DNA from: Bermanella marisrubri | Lineage (GTDB): Bacteria; Pseudomonadota; Gammaproteobacteria; Pseudomonadales; Oceanobacteraceae | DNA length: 64,000 bases | Assembly: GCF_012295615.1 (NCBI RefSeq) | Contig: NZ_CP051183.1 | Span: 1,205,001-1,269,000, forward strand | Direction of reading: 5' to 3' | Part shown: one piece after another, positions 28,341 to 62,856 of the stretch | Layout of the letters: each line of letters opens with the position of its first letter | How positions within the stretch are numbered: position 1 is the first letter of the stretch | Position numbers and translations under genes: made by a program | Notes under the pieces: generated by a model | The model's database searches: none | What the model saw: only the letters and a program-made list of their open reading frames with translations | What the model was told of the DNA's origin: nothing

Positions 28341-29783
28341 CTATCGTTCATTACTTAACATAATAGTTTCAGTTTTTTCATAAAGTGTTTCAGAGGCTTG
28401 ATAGATATTATTTAGACGCCATTGTGTTCGCCTTTTATTTTTGGAAGCGTCCATTTCATTATATTTTGGAGCTGGATCGAGATATATAATTCCGTCATGG
28501 ATTGCTTTTATTAGATTCTCTACAGTTGATCTGAAGCACCAGAGAACCTTGTCTTGAAATACAACACGCTTTAAAAAACCTTCTTCTTTTTCTTCTGCAA
28601 TAGTATTTTCAACGACTTTTGCTGGAACGTAAACAACTTCATTATGTTTTGCCCCCCATTTATTCATTAGGTGTTCAATAGACCATGAGGCTGCAATATC
28701 GCCGTTAGAGTATTCAAGAATGACCTGCATACCATTCATTTGTTTTGAAAATGGGATGCTAGGATCATAGATTTTTCTCGTGATATCTTTTTCTTCTAAG
28801 CCTTTTGTAACCGGGAAGCATATGATTTTCAAGGTTAATTCTGTCTTTGGGTTTATTTTATAGGCTCTGTGAAGGCCTGTAAGTCTATACTCTTCGCCTT
28901 TAAGATAGCCATATTTCTTCATGAAGTTGTTAAAATTTTCATGGTACAAGCCACCATCGGCCTCTGTTGTAATGAGTGATAGTTTGGTTCGGGTAAAACA
29001 CTTCAATTCAATGCCCAAAATATCACCATCATGATTACTATTGGGTATAATCCCTAAAGCATGCTCGAGTGTATACCCGTGCACTTGAGTTCCAGTGAAG
29101 GGGGCTGTTTCCCCTGAACTTAGTAGGCGGCAACCTTTGAGACTCTGATTGGCAATTTTTTGAGAAAGCAGGTTTTTAAGTTTCTCTGTGTTATTGGAAA
29201 CATGTTCAATCTCAAGTAGCTTACAAATTTTAGATCCTTGAAAAAATTTCAGAGTCTTAAAGTCGCTATAGAATTTATCTAATGGATCAACAATCATCAT
29301 TGCTATCGCTACACCATTGTCAGTTGCGCCTAAAACTAGGTAGCGTGGTTTGAGAGCATCGCTTTTTGTGTATTCGACGCTCATCGCCTTTGGCATGTTT
29401 CCATGGATGGTTTGAAACCCTGATAAGCGAGTCTCGGGATATTGGTGATAGGTTATCGCCTTGCATTCTTTAACTTTTTCACGACTGCCGTCGCGTTTTA
29501 GCCAATAGAATTCATTGAATATAGCCTGAGGTATTAATCGTCCTGGATTTGATGCTCTTTTAGTGAGGCTTGTGCTAGCTTCGCGTTCGTCGAAAGTCAT
29601 ATCATATACAGAGTTTAAAGCACTTGTATCATGATGAAAGTAGACTTGATTTTTATCGTTATTATTTTTTGGCAGCTTTTTGATTAGAGCAATCGTACAA
29701 TCATTTGATTTTAATTTATCATGAACATCATTCATGCTCTCTATGTTCAAGAAATCTAAATCACTGAACTCCATTTTACTCAT
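28341..29783 (-). CDS. MvaI/BcnI-family type II restriction endonuclease
   Basis: 480 residues. The C-terminal catalytic domain shows the MvaI/BcnI pattern: GTQVHGYTLEHALGIIPNS, then HDGDILGIELKCF (251-263), in which D254, E259 and K261 form a PD-(D/E)xK centre. The N-terminal part (FNEFYWLKRDGS ... TYHQYPETRLSGF) resembles the extra domain seen in longer members. MvaI cuts CCWGG. The Dcm-like methylase 175 bp away supports the same target, but the specificity is inferred. The gene is visibly A/T-rich against its left neighbours, as expected for acquired DNA. Confidence 0.85.
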   Translation of the reverse strand: MSKMEFSDLDFLNIESMNDVHDKLKSNDCTIALIKKLPKNNNDKNQVYFHHDTSALNSVYDMTFDEREASTSLTKRASNPGRLIPQAIFNEFYWLKRDGSREKVKECKAITYHQYPETRLSGFQTIHGNMPKAMSVEYTKSDALKPRYLVLGATDNGVAIAMMIVDPLDKFYSDFKTLKFFQGSKICKLLEIEHVSNNTEKLKNLLSQKIANQSLKGCRLLSSGETAPFTGTQVHGYTLEHALGIIPNSNHDGDILGIELKCFTRTKLSLITTEADGGLYHENFNNFMKKYGYLKGEEYRLTGLHRAYKINPKTELTLKIICFPVTKGLEEKDITRKIYDPSIPFSKQMNGMQVILEYSNGDIAASWSIEHLMNKWGAKHNEVVYVPAKVVENTIAEEKEEGFLKRVVFQDKVLWCFRSTVENLIKAIHDGIIYLDPAPKYNEMDASKNKRRTQWRLNNIYQASETLYEKTETIMLSNER

Positions 29784-29958: not shown

Positions 29959-31335
29959 TTAGGCAGCAGATTTATTAGGTTTTATTTTTATCGATTCTTG
30001 GATATATGGTTTCATTAGTTTTGCAACGGCCTCAAAAACAGGAACAATAACTGAATTACCGAATTGTCGATATGCTTGAGTGTCTGAAACAGGAATGATA
30101 AAAGGGCTTTCTTCTACCTTTTCAAATCCCATTAATCTTGCGCATTCCTTAGGGGTTAAGCGTCTAGGACGACGCTTTTGATTTGATTGGTTCCAAAAAT
30201 CAGTTTCTCCAGTTCTTTTATTCCAGCCGCGATCAATCAGTATTTCGGACCCATCTTTGTGATAACGAGCGGATAGAGTTCTACACACTGCCGAGCTATT
30301 TTTTGGATCAACTAGTCCATAACCAAATCCGTTGCCTTTGGCTTGGTGTTTTTTCGCATATTCATACAGGTATTCCCATAGTCTGGGTGTGAGTACGTAC
30401 TTTTCGTCTACAGATTTTTCTAACAAGGAAGATAGAGATGGAACTTCTCTTGGTTTCGGTAAATTAGTTAGAGTAAATCTATTGGTTAGGTTCAGATCCT
30501 TTCTAAAACCGACTAAAACTATACGTTCTCGGTGTTGAGGTAAGAAGTTTGCACCGTCAATAATTTTGGGATCTTTACCAGAGTAATCTACATCAGCTAC
30601 ATCATAACCTAACTCATCCAAAGCCTCTAAGATGACTTTAAAGGTTTTACCCTTATCATGACTTTTAAGATTTTTAACATTTTCTAACACAAACGCGTTT
30701 GGTTTTCGGGCACGAATAATCCTGCACACATCAAAAAACAATGTTCCTTGAGCATCACATTCAAACCCATGTTTTCTACCTAGTGAGTTTTTCTTTGAAA
30801 CACCAGCTAAAGAAAAAGGCTGACAGGGAAAGCCGGCTAGAAGAACCTCATGATGAGGTATGATCTTTCTAATATGCTCATCAGCATCTCGTTCAGAAAT
30901 ATCATCAATGTTCGAAAGAGTAACGTCGCGAATATCTTCATTAAATTTGTGATCTCTAGGGTCACAAAAATGATTCGCTTTGTAAGTTCTTATTGCATAT
31001 TTGTTCCATTCACTGGTAAAAACACACTTTCCACCTATATTGTCGAAACCTTTTCTAATTCCTCCAATACCTGCAAACAGGTCTATAAACGTGAAATCAG
31101 GGTTGTCGTAGTGTGGTGGTTTTTCGGGAAGCAAGCCCTCTAGAAAAAATAGCTCGTTTTCGTTAAAGCATTTTTCACTTTTGCCTTTGAGAACCCTGTT
31201 GATAGTTTCTCGACACCAATCATTTACGGTAATTGGGTTTAGTTTCTCTGCTATTTGTTTCTGGTCATAAACTTCCAGCAATTTGTTTAAAATATCATGT
31301 GTTTTGTCAGGAAGGCTCATGCTTATTTGTTCCAT
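29959..31335 (-). CDS. dcm: Dcm-type DNA (cytosine-5-)-methyltransferase, probable CCWGG specificity
   Basis: 458 residues. Motif [16 protein letters not shown] starts at about 83, motif [22 protein letters not shown] has the catalytic Cys171, then [17 protein letters not shown] and [11 protein letters not shown]. The C-terminus has [14 protein letters not shown] and [15 protein letters not shown]. The whole sequence, including the N-terminal extension ([15 protein letters not shown]), follows E. coli Dcm closely as I remember it, which supports methylation of CCWGG. It is upstream of and in line with the MvaI-family endonuclease. No vsr gene is seen. Confidence 0.92.
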
Positions 31336-32163: not shown

Positions 32164-32484
32164 ATGACGAACCAGCTTACACAAGGACAAAGTAAACGAG
32201 TCATGTATATCGAAAACAAAGAAGGATATATTGACGACTTTGCAGCGCATATTGGCTGGGTTACTTTTTCTAAATCAGGTAAAACTGTTTACTACCAAGA
32301 TAAGGCTCTTTCTCGCATCAAAAAAGGTGGGATCTCTGGCAATCATATGGATGAAGAAACTGGAGAAGAGTATTGGGTCTCCGGAATTAAAAAGAGAGGC
32401 TCAAATACTCACTGGGCCGAATCTACCAATGTAAAAATCGACGATGATGCTAGAGAAGAGTATGAACGCATTATCAACAGTTAA
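32164..32484 (+). CDS. Small conserved hypothetical protein
   Basis: 106 residues, very hydrophilic, beginning MTNQLTQGQSKRVMYIENKEGYIDDFAAHIGWVTFSKSG (first 39 residues, in outline) and containing YYQDKALSRIKKGG, GEEYWVSGIKKRGSNTHW and an acidic end. This pattern is familiar from a widespread family of small cytoplasmic proteins of unknown function. The stop codon falls directly on the left edge of an attC-like palindrome, as in an integron gene cassette. Confidence 0.75.
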   Translation: MTNQLTQGQSKRVMYIENKEGYIDDFAAHIGWVTFSKSGKTVYYQDKALSRIKKGGISGNHMDEETGEEYWVSGIKKRGSNTHWAESTNVKIDDDAREEYERIINS

Positions 32485-32565
32485 CCCATATAACCAGTCA
32501 GGGCACCAACGCCCACTTCGTGGGCTGGACGGCTTCGCCGCCGGTGCCTGAGGCGGTATATGTTA
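32482..32565. repeat. attC-like palindromic element
   Basis: An 84-bp imperfect palindrome. The outer arms catataaccagtcagggcacc (given in part as 32488-32507) and ggtgcctgaggcggtatatg (32543-32562) pair, with two short inner hairpins (gcccacttcgtgggc and cggcttcgccg). Its ends carry GTTAAC and GTTAAT, each one base off an integron core site. The polarity is ambiguous and the double inner hairpin is not classical, so it could also be a REP-like element. Confidence 0.5.
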
Positions 32566-32745
32566 ATTCTACCGTGAGTACCAAACTCATATATGCGTAC
32601 TCGCGCAAACTCTGAAGCATCCCTGTCCATTTTTATGTAATTGATACGGCTCGTATTCTTGTTTTCTATCATGTTGCTTTCCATATACTTATGAGATACT
32701 GGCACTGGCTTTGAGCATCGTTTTTTTGAAGGAATATAGAATAAT

Positions 32746-33588
32746 ATGAAGGTAGTCAGCTTTGTAAATATGAAAGGTGGTGTTGCAAAAACAACCTTGT
32801 CTATAAATATTGCAGACTGTATGGCAACTAGACATGGATTGAGAGTGCTAATTATAGATTTAGATCCTCAATTTAATGCTACTCAGGCGTTAGTACATGG
32901 TTCAGATTATGTCGGTTACCTAGAAAAAGGTGGGCATACGATTGTTGATATCTTTGATGATAACCCTAGAGTTCAAACTAGCTCTGTGAAGGGGGAATTG
33001 CCGGCTCAACCTCTTGCATTAGAAGAAATTAAGCCAATGGTACGCAAAAACAACTTGTTTTTACTTCCCGGTGCACTTGAGCTTTATCGTTTGGATATGA
33101 CAGGAGGGCAAGGTAGAGAGCATCGCTTAAAAAGATATATAGACATTGTTAAAAGTTCAGGGCTATATGACCTAGTTATCATTGATACTCCACCAACGCC
33201 TTCTACTTGGATGTCCGCTGCTTTAATCGCATCTGATTATTATTTGGTTCCTGTTAAACCTGAACCTCTATCAGTTACTGGTGTTGACCTCTTAAGAAAT
33301 GTGATAAATCGAGTTAAAGAGAATTACTCGCTTGGAATCGAGTGCCTTGGTGTGGTGTTGACAATTTCAGATGAAAGAGAAACGGTTTACAAAAATGCCA
33401 AAGAGTACCTTGATTCGGCTGCTTTCTGGAAAGGGAAGCGATTCAAAAAATCATTACTGAAGCGAACGGAAATAGCGAGACGACAAGGTAACCAAGAATT
33501 AATTTTGGATACCGATGATTCAAAATTAAAAATGGCGATAGCAGATATTACTAGAGAAGCACTACAGAAATTAGGTTTGGAGAACTAA
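32746..33588 (+). CDS. ParA/Soj family ATPase, first gene of a three-gene unit
   Basis: 280 residues. The deviant Walker A motif KGGVAKTT is at 10-17 (Ala for the usual Gly at one position), Walker A' IIDLDPQFNATQAL is at about 37-50, and Walker B LVIIDTPPTPSTWM is near 144. The domain is complete, up to PVKPEPLSVTGVDLL and a C-terminal helical part. No helix-turn-helix extension precedes the ATPase, so it resembles MinD/Soj-type or small plasmid ParA. It is followed after one base by a helical protein gene and then a third gene, with no parB. GAAGGA lies upstream of the ATG. Confidence 0.85.
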   Translation: MKVVSFVNMKGGVAKTTLSINIADCMATRHGLRVLIIDLDPQFNATQALVHGSDYVGYLEKGGHTIVDIFDDNPRVQTSSVKGELPAQPLALEEIKPMVRKNNLFLLPGALELYRLDMTGGQGREHRLKRYIDIVKSSGLYDLVIIDTPPTPSTWMSAALIASDYYLVPVKPEPLSVTGVDLLRNVINRVKENYSLGIECLGVVLTISDERETVYKNAKEYLDSAAFWKGKRFKKSLLKRTEIARRQGNQELILDTDDSKLKMAIADITREALQKLGLEN

Positions 33589-33589
33589 G

Positions 33590-34081
33590 ATGAAAGACAA
33601 AAAAGAACTAAAGACGCTTTTACGTTTTTTAGAAGAACTCTCATGGCTTATGGATAGTTACTCAAAAATAGATTTCAGAAATGCGGCGTCTCTTATTGAA
33701 AATTTGGCTACCGATAAGTCTGACGCTAAAAAAGCTGTTGGGGAGTACGAATCTAAAAATCCTAATAAACATTTTTTAGTTGGGGCGTTACCCGCTCTAT
33801 TTCTAGATATAGATCTTTTTAAGCGTAATCAAGATATAGCTGACTTTTCAAAAACTGTACTAGGTATTGAATTAACTAGGTTTAGCAGGAGTTCTAGAGC
33901 AGATGTTATTGGTAGGGTAATTTGCGCTACAGTTGACTTAGATGATGAAGGTCTAAATGTTTTAGTTAAGGCATTGGCTGTTTTAGCTGGTAATAAGGAA
34001 AAAACAAAACAGATATTACGCGATCGGGATAGTAATGACTTCAACTGGAATACTGTTATAAATGAGCTTTCTTCGAGGTAA
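33590..34081 (+). CDS. Hypothetical helical protein, second gene of the ParA unit
   Basis: 163 residues, mainly helical, Lys/Asp-rich. I recognise no domain. Notable segments are KTLLRFLEELSWLMDSY at the N-terminus, a hydrophobic stretch FLVGALPALFLDIDLF, and SSRADVIGRVICATVDLDDEG, which looks like a conserved core. Its start is one base after the ParA stop and its stop is 3 bp from the next gene, so the three proteins are made together. It occupies the place of a partition adaptor but has no ParB-like motif. Confidence 0.7.
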   Translation: MKDKKELKTLLRFLEELSWLMDSYSKIDFRNAASLIENLATDKSDAKKAVGEYESKNPNKHFLVGALPALFLDIDLFKRNQDIADFSKTVLGIELTRFSRSSRADVIGRVICATVDLDDEGLNVLVKALAVLAGNKEKTKQILRDRDSNDFNWNTVINELSSR

Positions 34082-34084
34082 AGC

Positions 34085-34801
34085 ATGTCGACGAGATTGA
34101 TACAAGACGATTTTGAGTGCTTAAAAGAATTTGTAAGTGAATACCGACTACCAAATGAAGATAATGTTGAGTACTTTAACAATTTAAAAAGAACTCACAA
34201 GGTTTATTTTTCGGTTTTGGAGCTTCATTCCATATGTAAAGGTATGGGACCTTTCAAAAGTAACATGGATTCAACGTTCGTAAAATATCTAGGAGAGTCA
34301 ATTTCAGAGCTTGGAAGCTCTCTATTTGTTTCGCTTCATGGGTGCTATAAAGGAAGTGATCAGATATTAAGAAGTTCTATTGAAAACTTCTTAAAAGCAT
34401 TTGGAAGTACTGTACATTCTGACATTACTTCTATCAAAAACACTTATGAAGTCATTGATAAGTCAGGGGATGCTGAAGTATTCAAAACTAAAGAGATCAA
34501 AGAGAAGTACTACAGGTTGAAGGATTTATATTCTACACTTTGTGCTTCAGTTCATACTGCAACAGAGTCAAATATGCAAAATGTAGGCGCTTTAGGTCAC
34601 TTTCCTTACTTTGATGCTGATTCCTCTGCACAGTTTGTGAATAACTATATTGCGGTTTCTAACGCAATTTTAGATATTTTGTGTTGGTCAATTAGAACTG
34701 AGTATTCGAAAGTTCATTATCAAAGTAAAGATATAATTCAAGCCTCTTTATCTAAAAAAATTAAATTGATGATTTATTCTGGAGACGCTTCGTTGGCATA
34801 A
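34085..34801 (+). CDS. Hypothetical helical protein with HEPN-like features, third gene of the ParA unit
   Basis: 238 residues, all-helical in appearance. The segment ILRSSIENFLKAF (94-106) together with LYSTLCASVHTAT (148-160) resembles the paired helices of HEPN-like proteins in defence and toxin systems. RTEYSKVH at 204-211 fits the loose RNase pattern R-x4-6-H. None of this is decisive. The end of the gene is followed by a hairpin and then an attC site. Confidence 0.65.
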   Translation: MSTRLIQDDFECLKEFVSEYRLPNEDNVEYFNNLKRTHKVYFSVLELHSICKGMGPFKSNMDSTFVKYLGESISELGSSLFVSLHGCYKGSDQILRSSIENFLKAFGSTVHSDITSIKNTYEVIDKSGDAEVFKTKEIKEKYYRLKDLYSTLCASVHTATESNMQNVGALGHFPYFDADSSAQFVNNYIAVSNAILDILCWSIRTEYSKVHYQSKDIIQASLSKKIKLMIYSGDASLA

Positions 34802-34822
34802 GCTTAGTTACTAGTAATTATT

Positions 34823-34869
34823 CAGGAGAGTAGTGCCCAATTAATGAATTAATAGGGGCTGCTCTCCTA
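34823..34869 (+). terminator. Hairpin after the ParA unit
   Basis: Arms aggagagtagtgccc and ggggctgctctcct. No strong T run follows, so it may stabilise the mRNA end rather than terminate efficiently. Confidence 0.5.
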
Positions 34870-34871
34870 GT

Positions 34872-34968
34872 ATTTAACAAAGCATTTAAGAGGGATTCGC
34901 AACACTTGGCAGTTTCGCTTCGCTCAAGTATAGCCAAGCGCTGCTCACACCTTAATGCGGCGTCAAAA
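34872..34968 (+). repeat. Integron attC recombination site (Vibrio-like)
   Basis: The left core ATTTAAC at 34872 matches RYYYAAC fully. It is followed by the Vibrio-type arm gcatttaagagggattcgca, the inner stem acttggc...gccaagcg with a loop of about 20 nt, and the right arm ctcacaccttaatgcggcgt. I recognise this arrangement from Vibrio/Pseudoalteromonas cassette arrays. The right core reads GTCAAAA in place of GTTRRRY, so the crossover triplet is mutated and recombination is probably weak. Orientation agrees with a cassette ending here and covering the ParA unit. Confidence 0.8.
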
Positions 34969-35020
34969 AAGGTAGTAAGTTGGTTGTTACTACACTTACC
35001 CTAAGATATTAGAAGGTAAA

Positions 35021-36349
35021 ATGGTTGTGCGTATAGTACTCATAATTGTCTGTTTGCTAGTGTCCCATAACTCAGTATCCAATTTTGGGGGCTATATTAG
35101 CAATGATATTAGTGAATCCGGGAACATTGTCCTTAAGAAAACGACCGCTCCGATCTCTTTAGATAAAGAACGGTTATTCTTTGATGTTGGGCAACGAGTA
35201 AAAGTGAAAGGACATTTCTGGCTGACCAATAACGACGATGTTCCCCACAATGTGACGATTGCATTCCCCCAAGATACGAGATGGAAGGCAGATTGGGATT
35301 CTGATGCTGATCGGTACGTTGCGCAAGATTACAAAGTTTTTAGACCTAATCTGGAAATAAATGATGTGGCAGAAACGTTTAATGGGTTTAAATATTCTAA
35401 AGGCGCTTACGATCTTAACCTAGTAAACAGAAAAACGGCGGCTAAGTGGGTGGAAGAGCATGTTGCTTTGAATGAAGCAAACCCGGTTTATACCGCTACG
35501 GTTTGGCTAACTAAATCCATTTCCTTTGGCGCAAATGAGACCAAGAAAGTCTCTATCTACTATGACTTTCCTTGGTTTTATAAGGATGAAACTTGGTCAT
35601 TTGGTCTTAGATATAGCAATCAAAGGGTTTTTGAATATATAACCACAACAGCAAACACGTGGTTTGGTGGAAAGGTAAAAGATTTTGAAGCAGTCGCTAC
35701 CTTGCCAAAGGATGTTGCTTCTCGCATTGAATTAAATCCTGCTGGATGGAAGTTGGATGAAACGGGTCGAGCTGTCTTAAATAAGCAGAATTGGTCTCCT
35801 AGTAGTGAGGATAACATTGCATTCTCTTGGAGAAGTGATTTAGCCATGCATTCGAAAAACGGTGACAATGACTGTTTAGATTCAAAATACTACCGTGACT
35901 ATCATTGGCGGTTTGGTTTTGATGGCAGCAGAAGAACAGCATGGTGTAGTAATAGAAAAATGTTGGAGTGCAAAACCTTTTCAATCGTGCCGTTTAATGA
36001 TGATGGTGAATATGATCCTCAAGAAATCAGTCACGCGAAAAGTATTGATGGGGAACCAGTTATGGTTAAGGGATTAAAGATCATTAATGGTTACGGAAAA
36101 AACGACAATGTGTTTGCCAACAACGCTCGGGTACGAAATATCGAGTTCTATATGGACGACCGGATAGATAGAGAGCAGGATGTGAAATGGAAGCAAGCCT
36201 TCAGATTGAAAGATACAGATCAGCCTCAAGTAGTGATGTTTGAAGAGCCGATTGATATAAGGAAGGGCTTGGATTTCAACATTATTGATGTCTATAAAGG
36301 GAAGCGGTTCGAGGATATATGTATTTCAGAAATTCAGCTTATCCAATAG
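35021..36349 (+). CDS. Secreted protein with C-terminal discoidin-like (NADase-type glycan-binding) domain
   Basis: 442 residues with a signal peptide (IVLIIVCLLVSHNSVS). The central part (about 40-270) contains immunoglobulin-like beta strands (VKVKGHFWLTNNDDVPHNVTIAFP). The C-terminus (about 300-442) has VMVKGLKIINGYGKN, VRNIEFYMDD, IDVYKGKRFEDICISEIQLI, the strand order of the NADase-type glycan-binding or discoidin-like module. The start is the ATG at 35021. It lies directly after the attC site and is A/T-rich, so it may be part of the same acquired DNA. The target of the binding module is unknown. Confidence 0.65.
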   Translation: MVVRIVLIIVCLLVSHNSVSNFGGYISNDISESGNIVLKKTTAPISLDKERLFFDVGQRVKVKGHFWLTNNDDVPHNVTIAFPQDTRWKADWDSDADRYVAQDYKVFRPNLEINDVAETFNGFKYSKGAYDLNLVNRKTAAKWVEEHVALNEANPVYTATVWLTKSISFGANETKKVSIYYDFPWFYKDETWSFGLRYSNQRVFEYITTTANTWFGGKVKDFEAVATLPKDVASRIELNPAGWKLDETGRAVLNKQNWSPSSEDNIAFSWRSDLAMHSKNGDNDCLDSKYYRDYHWRFGFDGSRRTAWCSNRKMLECKTFSIVPFNDDGEYDPQEISHAKSIDGEPVMVKGLKIINGYGKNDNVFANNARVRNIEFYMDDRIDREQDVKWKQAFRLKDTDQPQVVMFEEPIDIRKGLDFNIIDVYKGKRFEDICISEIQLIQ

Positions 36350-62649: not shown

Positions 62650-62737
62650 ATAGAGATTCAGACCCAACAAAGAAAAGGTTGATACCTACAAAAGCAGTGA
62701 TACACTCTGCTTACGTTGTTTTGTGATAAGCAAAACA

Positions 62738-62832
62738 TTAGCTCACGGGGTGCCCAATGTGCCATGCGCATAAGGCTGAGATTATGACCCGTAGAACCTG
62801 ATCCGACTAGCATCGGCGTAGGAATGAGCTAA
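62738..62832 (+). promoter_or_regulatory. TPP riboswitch (THI element)
   Basis: P1 arms ttagctca (62738-62745) and tgagctaa (62825-62832) pair. Inside are ggggtgc, ggctgagat, acccgtagaacctgatc and ggcgtaggaa, the conserved TPP aptamer core. It sits 206 bp before thiC and should lower thiC expression when thiamine pyrophosphate is high. Confidence 0.95.
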
Positions 62833-62856
62833 ATGTAATAATCCAATGTTGAATGG

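Follow-up and report, generated by a model that had tools for sequence, protein, structure and literature searches.

A divergent RemAIN-like gene trio headed by a ParA-type ATPase in Bermanella marisrubri, with a probable role in defence

The locus and its three genes

Within a 64,000-nt stretch of the Bermanella marisrubri genome (GCF_012295615.1, NZ_CP051183.1, positions 1,205,001-1,269,000; hereafter the window, to whose first letter all position numbers refer) lies a compact unit of three forward-strand genes at 32746-34801. The first (32746-33588) encodes a ParA/MinD-type ATPase of 280 amino acids (hereafter ParA), the second (33590-34081) a helical protein of 163 amino acids (P2) and the third (34085-34801) a HEPN-like protein of 238 amino acids (P3), a predicted ribonuclease (RNase). 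As an initial annotation made from the sequence had read it, 1 bp separates the first two genes and 3 bp the second and third. That annotation presented the trio as a candidate undescribed system. Here, sequence comparison places it instead as a divergent clade of the RemAIN kind, in which ParA and P3 are RemA-like and RemN-like, respectively, and P2 is the counterpart of the middle gene; because RemAIN has been named (PMC12724215; PMC12409363), the trio does not count as undescribed.

Database searches place the ATPase firmly and its partners less so. ParA matches the Pfam family AAA_31 (E 3.4e-38) and carries the Walker A motif KGGVAKTT. P2 matches PHROG 12497 (E 9.6e-21) and P3 matches PHROG 12265; P2 is without a match in Pfam, P3 has a single Pfam match far under the cut-off, and neither has a match in NCBIfam. 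That the ATPase lacks a ParB partner, as originally proposed, agrees with these searches: no ParB-type model in Pfam, NCBIfam or PHROGs matches P2 or P3, although small ParAs have varied partners and a missing match is therefore no proof. No model of PADLOC-DB 2023 matches the window trio in full. Partial matches there join ParA residues 4-40 to the candidate PDC-M28B (E 4.9e-4) and P3 to a specificity subunit (E 0.0093), with none for P2, and relatives of the trio likewise give weak, partial matches. The Pfam and PADLOC matches of P2 and P3 were discarded as weak.

Homology to RemAIN

Three Gifsy-1 genes of S. Typhimurium 14028s (STM14_3218, STM14_3219 and STM14_3220; 840, 309 and 663 bp) are described by Kurasz et al. 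2023 (PMC9879122) as encoding, in addition to two hypothetical proteins, a ParA-like ATPase that has no ParB. According to that paper, their deletion reduces SOS-dependent activation of RtcR, for which the signal is RNA ending in a 2',3'-cyclic phosphate, by 50-fold, and their expression in trans gives partial or no complementation. The same genes were named remAIN and reported to block the lytic cycles of resident and incoming phages alike (PMC12724215); in that account, plasmid-borne remAIN gave back resistance to phage FO1 to a 4/74 deletion strain and had no effect in LT2. RemAIN is also listed as a defence that targets transfer RNA (tRNA), with RemN given as a HEPN nuclease cutting tRNA (PMC12409363), and both of these papers cite Sargen and Helaine 2024. 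A putative plasmid partitioning system is reported for about a quarter of phages of the P2-like group (PMC9122126). In the literature searched, the clade of the window trio is not named.

The RemAIN counterpart used for comparison, contig L056, was assigned by gene lengths and neighbours rather than by locus tag. In contigs L056, L058, L060, L061 and L062, a repressor-like open reading frame (ORF) is followed by genes whose lengths are exactly 840 and 663 bp; on L056, a GTG start yields a middle gene of 309 bp, matching the length of STM14_3219, and on L062 a comparison with PHROGs covered both the repressor-like ORF and an exonuclease gene downstream. We take these contigs to represent RemAIN. 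As these two gene lengths recur in a further contig, L069 (P3 91% identical), and as the contigs lack names, the assignment is to the group rather than to one strain.

Each protein of the window trio is homologous to its counterpart in L056, in the same succession of three adjacent genes for a ParA-like ATPase, a small protein and a protein of approximately 220-240 amino acids. ParA is 36.6% identical to the L056 ATPase over 238 amino acids (BLAST E 3e-39, in a 19-row set). P2 aligns with the RemAIN set in a profile-profile comparison (hhalign E 1.4e-10, 77 columns) and cross-matches PHROG 6264, a family of the RemAIN side (E 9.6e-7). P3, at about 14% identity to its RemAIN counterpart (alignment A12), finds no match in the RemAIN set by plain BLAST; hhalign aligns the two at E 1.7e-6 and a probability of 90% over 193 columns, with the RSxIEN motif and the histidine in register. 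In trees, the window proteins group with those of genome G831 (same class), Denitromonas, a chromosomal island of E. coli and, where usable, Plesiomonas, with support of 100/100 for P2, 96/95 for P3 and 92/95 for ParA, the last below the starred level. Phage LF1 switches sides among the trees, and long branches were flagged.

Conservation of the trio

Counting the window, the order ParA-P2-P3 is found in 19 sets, with intergenic gaps of -20 to +9 bp, from prophages, phages, E. coli islands, a Plesiomonas plasmid, Denitromonas and Fusobacterium; among the 19, one set, from Acetoanaerobium, is in doubt, the ParA of Plesiomonas is broken and some sets are mutually close. Searches with P2 and P3 led to the trio in an E. 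coli record, in Plesiomonas plasmid p11184 and in Denitromonas, and searches with ParA and the P3 of relatives led to it on a circular, prophage-like E. coli element of 44.6 kb, in Fusobacterium vincentii, in G831 and in viral contigs. A separate listing of loci found all three genes in 14 out of 14, five of which are nearly identical. Recurrence of the gene order in 18 other sets is more than chance, and the accessory proteins accompany ParA wherever the sequence extends far enough to tell. The initial annotation had named, as grounds for abandoning its reading, a failure of the two accessory proteins to be conserved with ParA in other genomes; the genome-neighbourhood search found the reverse.

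ParA by itself is no marker of the trio. From 482 plasmid records with a ParA match, six were inspected: four hold the trio (L002, L003, L015, L016), L018 is doubtful and L017 has another partner. Both of the two phage records inspected, from 23 with a ParA match, hold the trio. The doubtful record is the Acetoanaerobium set, which was put aside, its P2 and P3 matching none of the PHROGs of the family. Also excluded was the Desulfobaculum plasmid (L017:4992-7340), on which a related ParA is followed by a single protein of 510 amino acids with a weak CARF-type match, possibly another ParA-partner system. Two matches to PHROG 12265 were rejected, one in G373, where the frame holds four stops, and one in G136, which overlaps a 564-amino-acid frame of repeated domains that is presumably ribosomal protein S1. 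Among the phage-borne copies, the P2 gene of Streptococcus phage Javan1 (L020:4902-5243) is left out of the deposited annotation, and a variant of the trio (L046:4751-6669 and L047:4751-6669) lies upstream of a long ORF that reads as tail-tape-measure-like, not beside an integrase.

Conserved positions in P3 and P2

Over 20 rows of P3, the window's among them, R96 is kept in 19, E100 and Y149 in all and H157 in 19, the row lacking R96 and H157 apparently being the doubtful Acetoanaerobium. The HEPN-like features first noted in P3 therefore stand in part: R96-S-x-I-E-N and H157 are conserved, whereas the R-x6-H at 204-211 was rejected as a HEPN motif and is a chance occurrence, since 2 of the 20 rows retain R204 and 3 retain H211. 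At H157 the canonical HEPN R-x4-6-H is absent from P3 (residues 150-152 read S, T and L), as it is from the RemN set L056, and for this reason P3 is here termed HEPN-like rather than a canonical HEPN nuclease. The predicted model of P3 is helical, and in a VIA-align comparison its matches at ranks 1, 3, 4 and 5 are labelled HEPN, at scores below the safe level of the tool; the match at rank 2, TT1696, we take to be HEPN as well. A HEPN-like third protein is thus supported by the homology to RemAIN and, less firmly, by structural comparison. The invariant residues of P2 are G65, N80, S102-R103 and W153 (alignment A13, 14 rows), and an N-terminal stretch present in the window protein is absent in the RemAIN clade.

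Distribution and genomic context

The distribution of the trio is patchy: it occurs in one of 55 kin genomes (the window's own), in 2/398 genomes of a sample of the phylum, again with the window's own counted, and in 2/295 genomes of the family of G659. Among 5,426 E. coli genomes, a query taken from the chromosomal copy, starting inside ParA and extending into adjoining genes, is covered to 80% or more in 121, and the prophage trio to the same extent in 16.

The company that these copies keep points to defence. One E. coli copy is set among type I restriction genes and DarTG, others stand with DUF262 or HsdM-family genes, and copies beside an integrase are found in an E. coli prophage (one nearly identical trio in several records, the 44.6-kb element included), Lactobacillus phage LF1 and phage Javan1. 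In the window itself, the restriction-modification pair that had been noted consists, by Pfam, of an MvaI/BcnI endonuclease (28341-29783) and a C5 methylase (29959-31335), both upstream; in place of the toxin-antitoxin pair also recognised at the outset, the analysis reads, about 4 kb downstream, a ParE-like toxin gene overlapped on its upstream side by a small ORF. No prophage genes were seen close to the trio within the window.

The system is easily overlooked, for PADLOC 2023 misses the trio and the annotation of the E. coli copies gives a ParA family protein plus two hypothetical proteins. What had been one Salmonella prophage element now extends to a family with members in Pseudomonadota, in a Fusobacterium and in Lactobacillus and Streptococcus phages; its settings further include chromosomal islands of E. 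coli, a plasmid and the flank of an attC-like site.

The attC-like site and neighbouring features

Downstream of P3, a site at 34872-34968 (forward strand) has an R'' box, ATTTAAC, at 34872 and, at the end of the fold (34962), an R' box, GTCAAAA, with two mismatches; an alternative R' box with one mismatch lies at 34979, 17 nt beyond the fold-end box. The bottom-strand centroid fold is attC-like, its folding energy is no better than that of shuffles (z about -0.2), and we presume a resemblance to Vibrio-type attC sites. No second copy exists in the genome, where matches of 16-22 bases are all that is found, and the sole integron-integrase match above cut-off is at 2,074,719, about 837 kb from the trio. 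Owing to the R' mismatches, the ordinary energy, the single copy and the distant integrase, the site is classed as attC-like but degenerate and isolated, rather than as belonging to an established cassette of an array. Of the claim that an attC site closes the unit, the R'' box and the attC-like fold hold up and the remainder does not; the idea that the trio is integron cassette cargo fails, as neither a complete attC with R'' and R' boxes nor an array by attI/IntI was found. The distant gene (G000:C1:2074719-2075654, and L081) encodes a full integron integrase, and attC-like hairpins occur in the stretch before it.

Upstream of the trio, a strong hairpin at 32486-32570 (fold of 32470-32580) reaches z -2.73 and -2.79 on the two strands, with 1 and 0 of 200 shuffles as good. 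It has a single copy in the genome and could be a terminator or a second attC-like site. Right after the downstream site, 35021-36349 encodes a protein of 442 amino acids, at whose C terminus Pfam finds a NADase_transloc domain (E 1.1e-15). Further off, the window opens within a 23S ribosomal RNA (rRNA) gene followed by a 5S rRNA gene (1-1376), and a thiamine pyrophosphate riboswitch lies close to its end (62736-62841).

Proposed function and alternative explanations

The trio is a real three-gene module and probably a defensive one, in line with the early suggestion of a self-contained anti-phage unit, which gains from the homology to RemAIN and from copies beside defence genes and prophage integrases. 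We consider it reasonably probable that it is, more specifically, a divergent RemAIN-like anti-phage module that acts through RNase activity of P3 on tRNA. Under such a scheme, the ParA-type ATPase and the small helical P2 would hold P3 inactive; a signal of phage replication would release or activate P3, which would then cut cellular tRNA by way of a site including R96, E100 and H157; and translation and phage maturation would halt before lysis. To this picture the present analysis contributes the conserved trio, the homology, a predicted helical fold that most resembles HEPN domains, the conserved candidate residues and the contexts. The block of lytic growth, the targeting of tRNA and the dependence of RtcR activation come from the RemAIN literature, and that the window proteins act as RemAIN does, tRNA cleavage included, is argued by analogy. 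We likewise infer the sensing roles of the partners and the hold that ParA and P2 have on P3.

Three other explanations deserve consideration. Firstly, the trio may be a toxin-antitoxin addiction module, in which P2 and ParA neutralise a HEPN-like toxin, P3, loss of the genes kills the cell and protection from phages is secondary or absent. We regard this as unlikely: searches of Pfam, NCBIfam and PADLOC show no likeness of either partner to a known antitoxin, and RemAIN is reported to act on phages and prophages (PMC12724215).

Secondly, the genes could form a cassette for element maintenance, with ParA and its partners segregating or stabilising the DNA that carries them. Gene 1 does belong to the ParA family, one copy of the trio sits on the circular E. 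coli element of 44.6 kb, and on plasmid p11184 the ParA frame begins 4 nt inside the end of a replication gene. A constant position next to a replication gene and parS sites had been proposed as the sign of such a cassette; that replication gene is the one instance, none having been seen beside the other annotated copies. An in-frame stop, moreover, interrupts the p11184 ParA (L003:3664-4482), with P2 and P3 remaining open there. The annotated E. coli copies sit in chromosomes or integrated prophages and two others in integrase-bearing phages, where partition would be of little use; P3 is HEPN-like, and no ParB-like domain was found (Pfam, NCBIfam, PHROGs). Partition is accordingly a distinctly improbable account.

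Thirdly, that the trio is a decayed passenger, once active and now non-functional, its P-loop weakened and its attC site dead, is very improbable: an A-for-G change in Walker A, the degenerate R' box of a single site and damaged copies elsewhere (the p11184 stop; an E. coli island copy, L027:10001-11912, with ParA interrupted by IS903B) speak for it, but the three ORFs of the window are open and closely spaced, and the A-for-G change looks inherited rather than a fresh decay because it is common to the open G831 trio, the ParA of which is 56% identical to the window's.

A RemAIN-like defence module, by comparison, would connect ParA-type ATPases with RNase-based immunity in a way open to test, with R96, E100, Y149 and H157 as candidate residues.

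Comparison with known systems

Closest to the window trio is RemAIN itself, with which it shares the order of ATPase, small protein and HEPN-type protein, the tight spacing, a ParA at 37% identity, homologous P2 and P3, and conserved R-S-x-I-E and Y...C...H positions. It differs in a longer P2 (163 amino acids, against 130 in RemAIN by the longest frame or 102 by the published length), in E-N where the RemAIN P3 has E-H, in a Walker A that reads A at the position of the RemAIN set's G, and in the lack of prophage genes around it within the window. GiPD474, from Gifsy-1 of S. Typhimurium 4/74, is likewise a ParA-like anti-phage ATPase in a prophage immunity region but is a single gene with no P2 or P3, and the remAIN cluster is reported, in the same description, to be without homology to the immunity region of GiPD474 (PMC12724215). 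From HEPN domains and toxins such as 2hsb and MntA-HepT, the window P3 is set apart by the missing R-x4-6-H at H157 and by its different partners. Finally, the P2 and P3 of both clades are held by nameless phage families, PHROG 12497/12265 and PHROG 6264/7540, alongside the ParA family PHROG 164; PHROG gives no function for either pair, and the present analysis joins the two pairs as one system.
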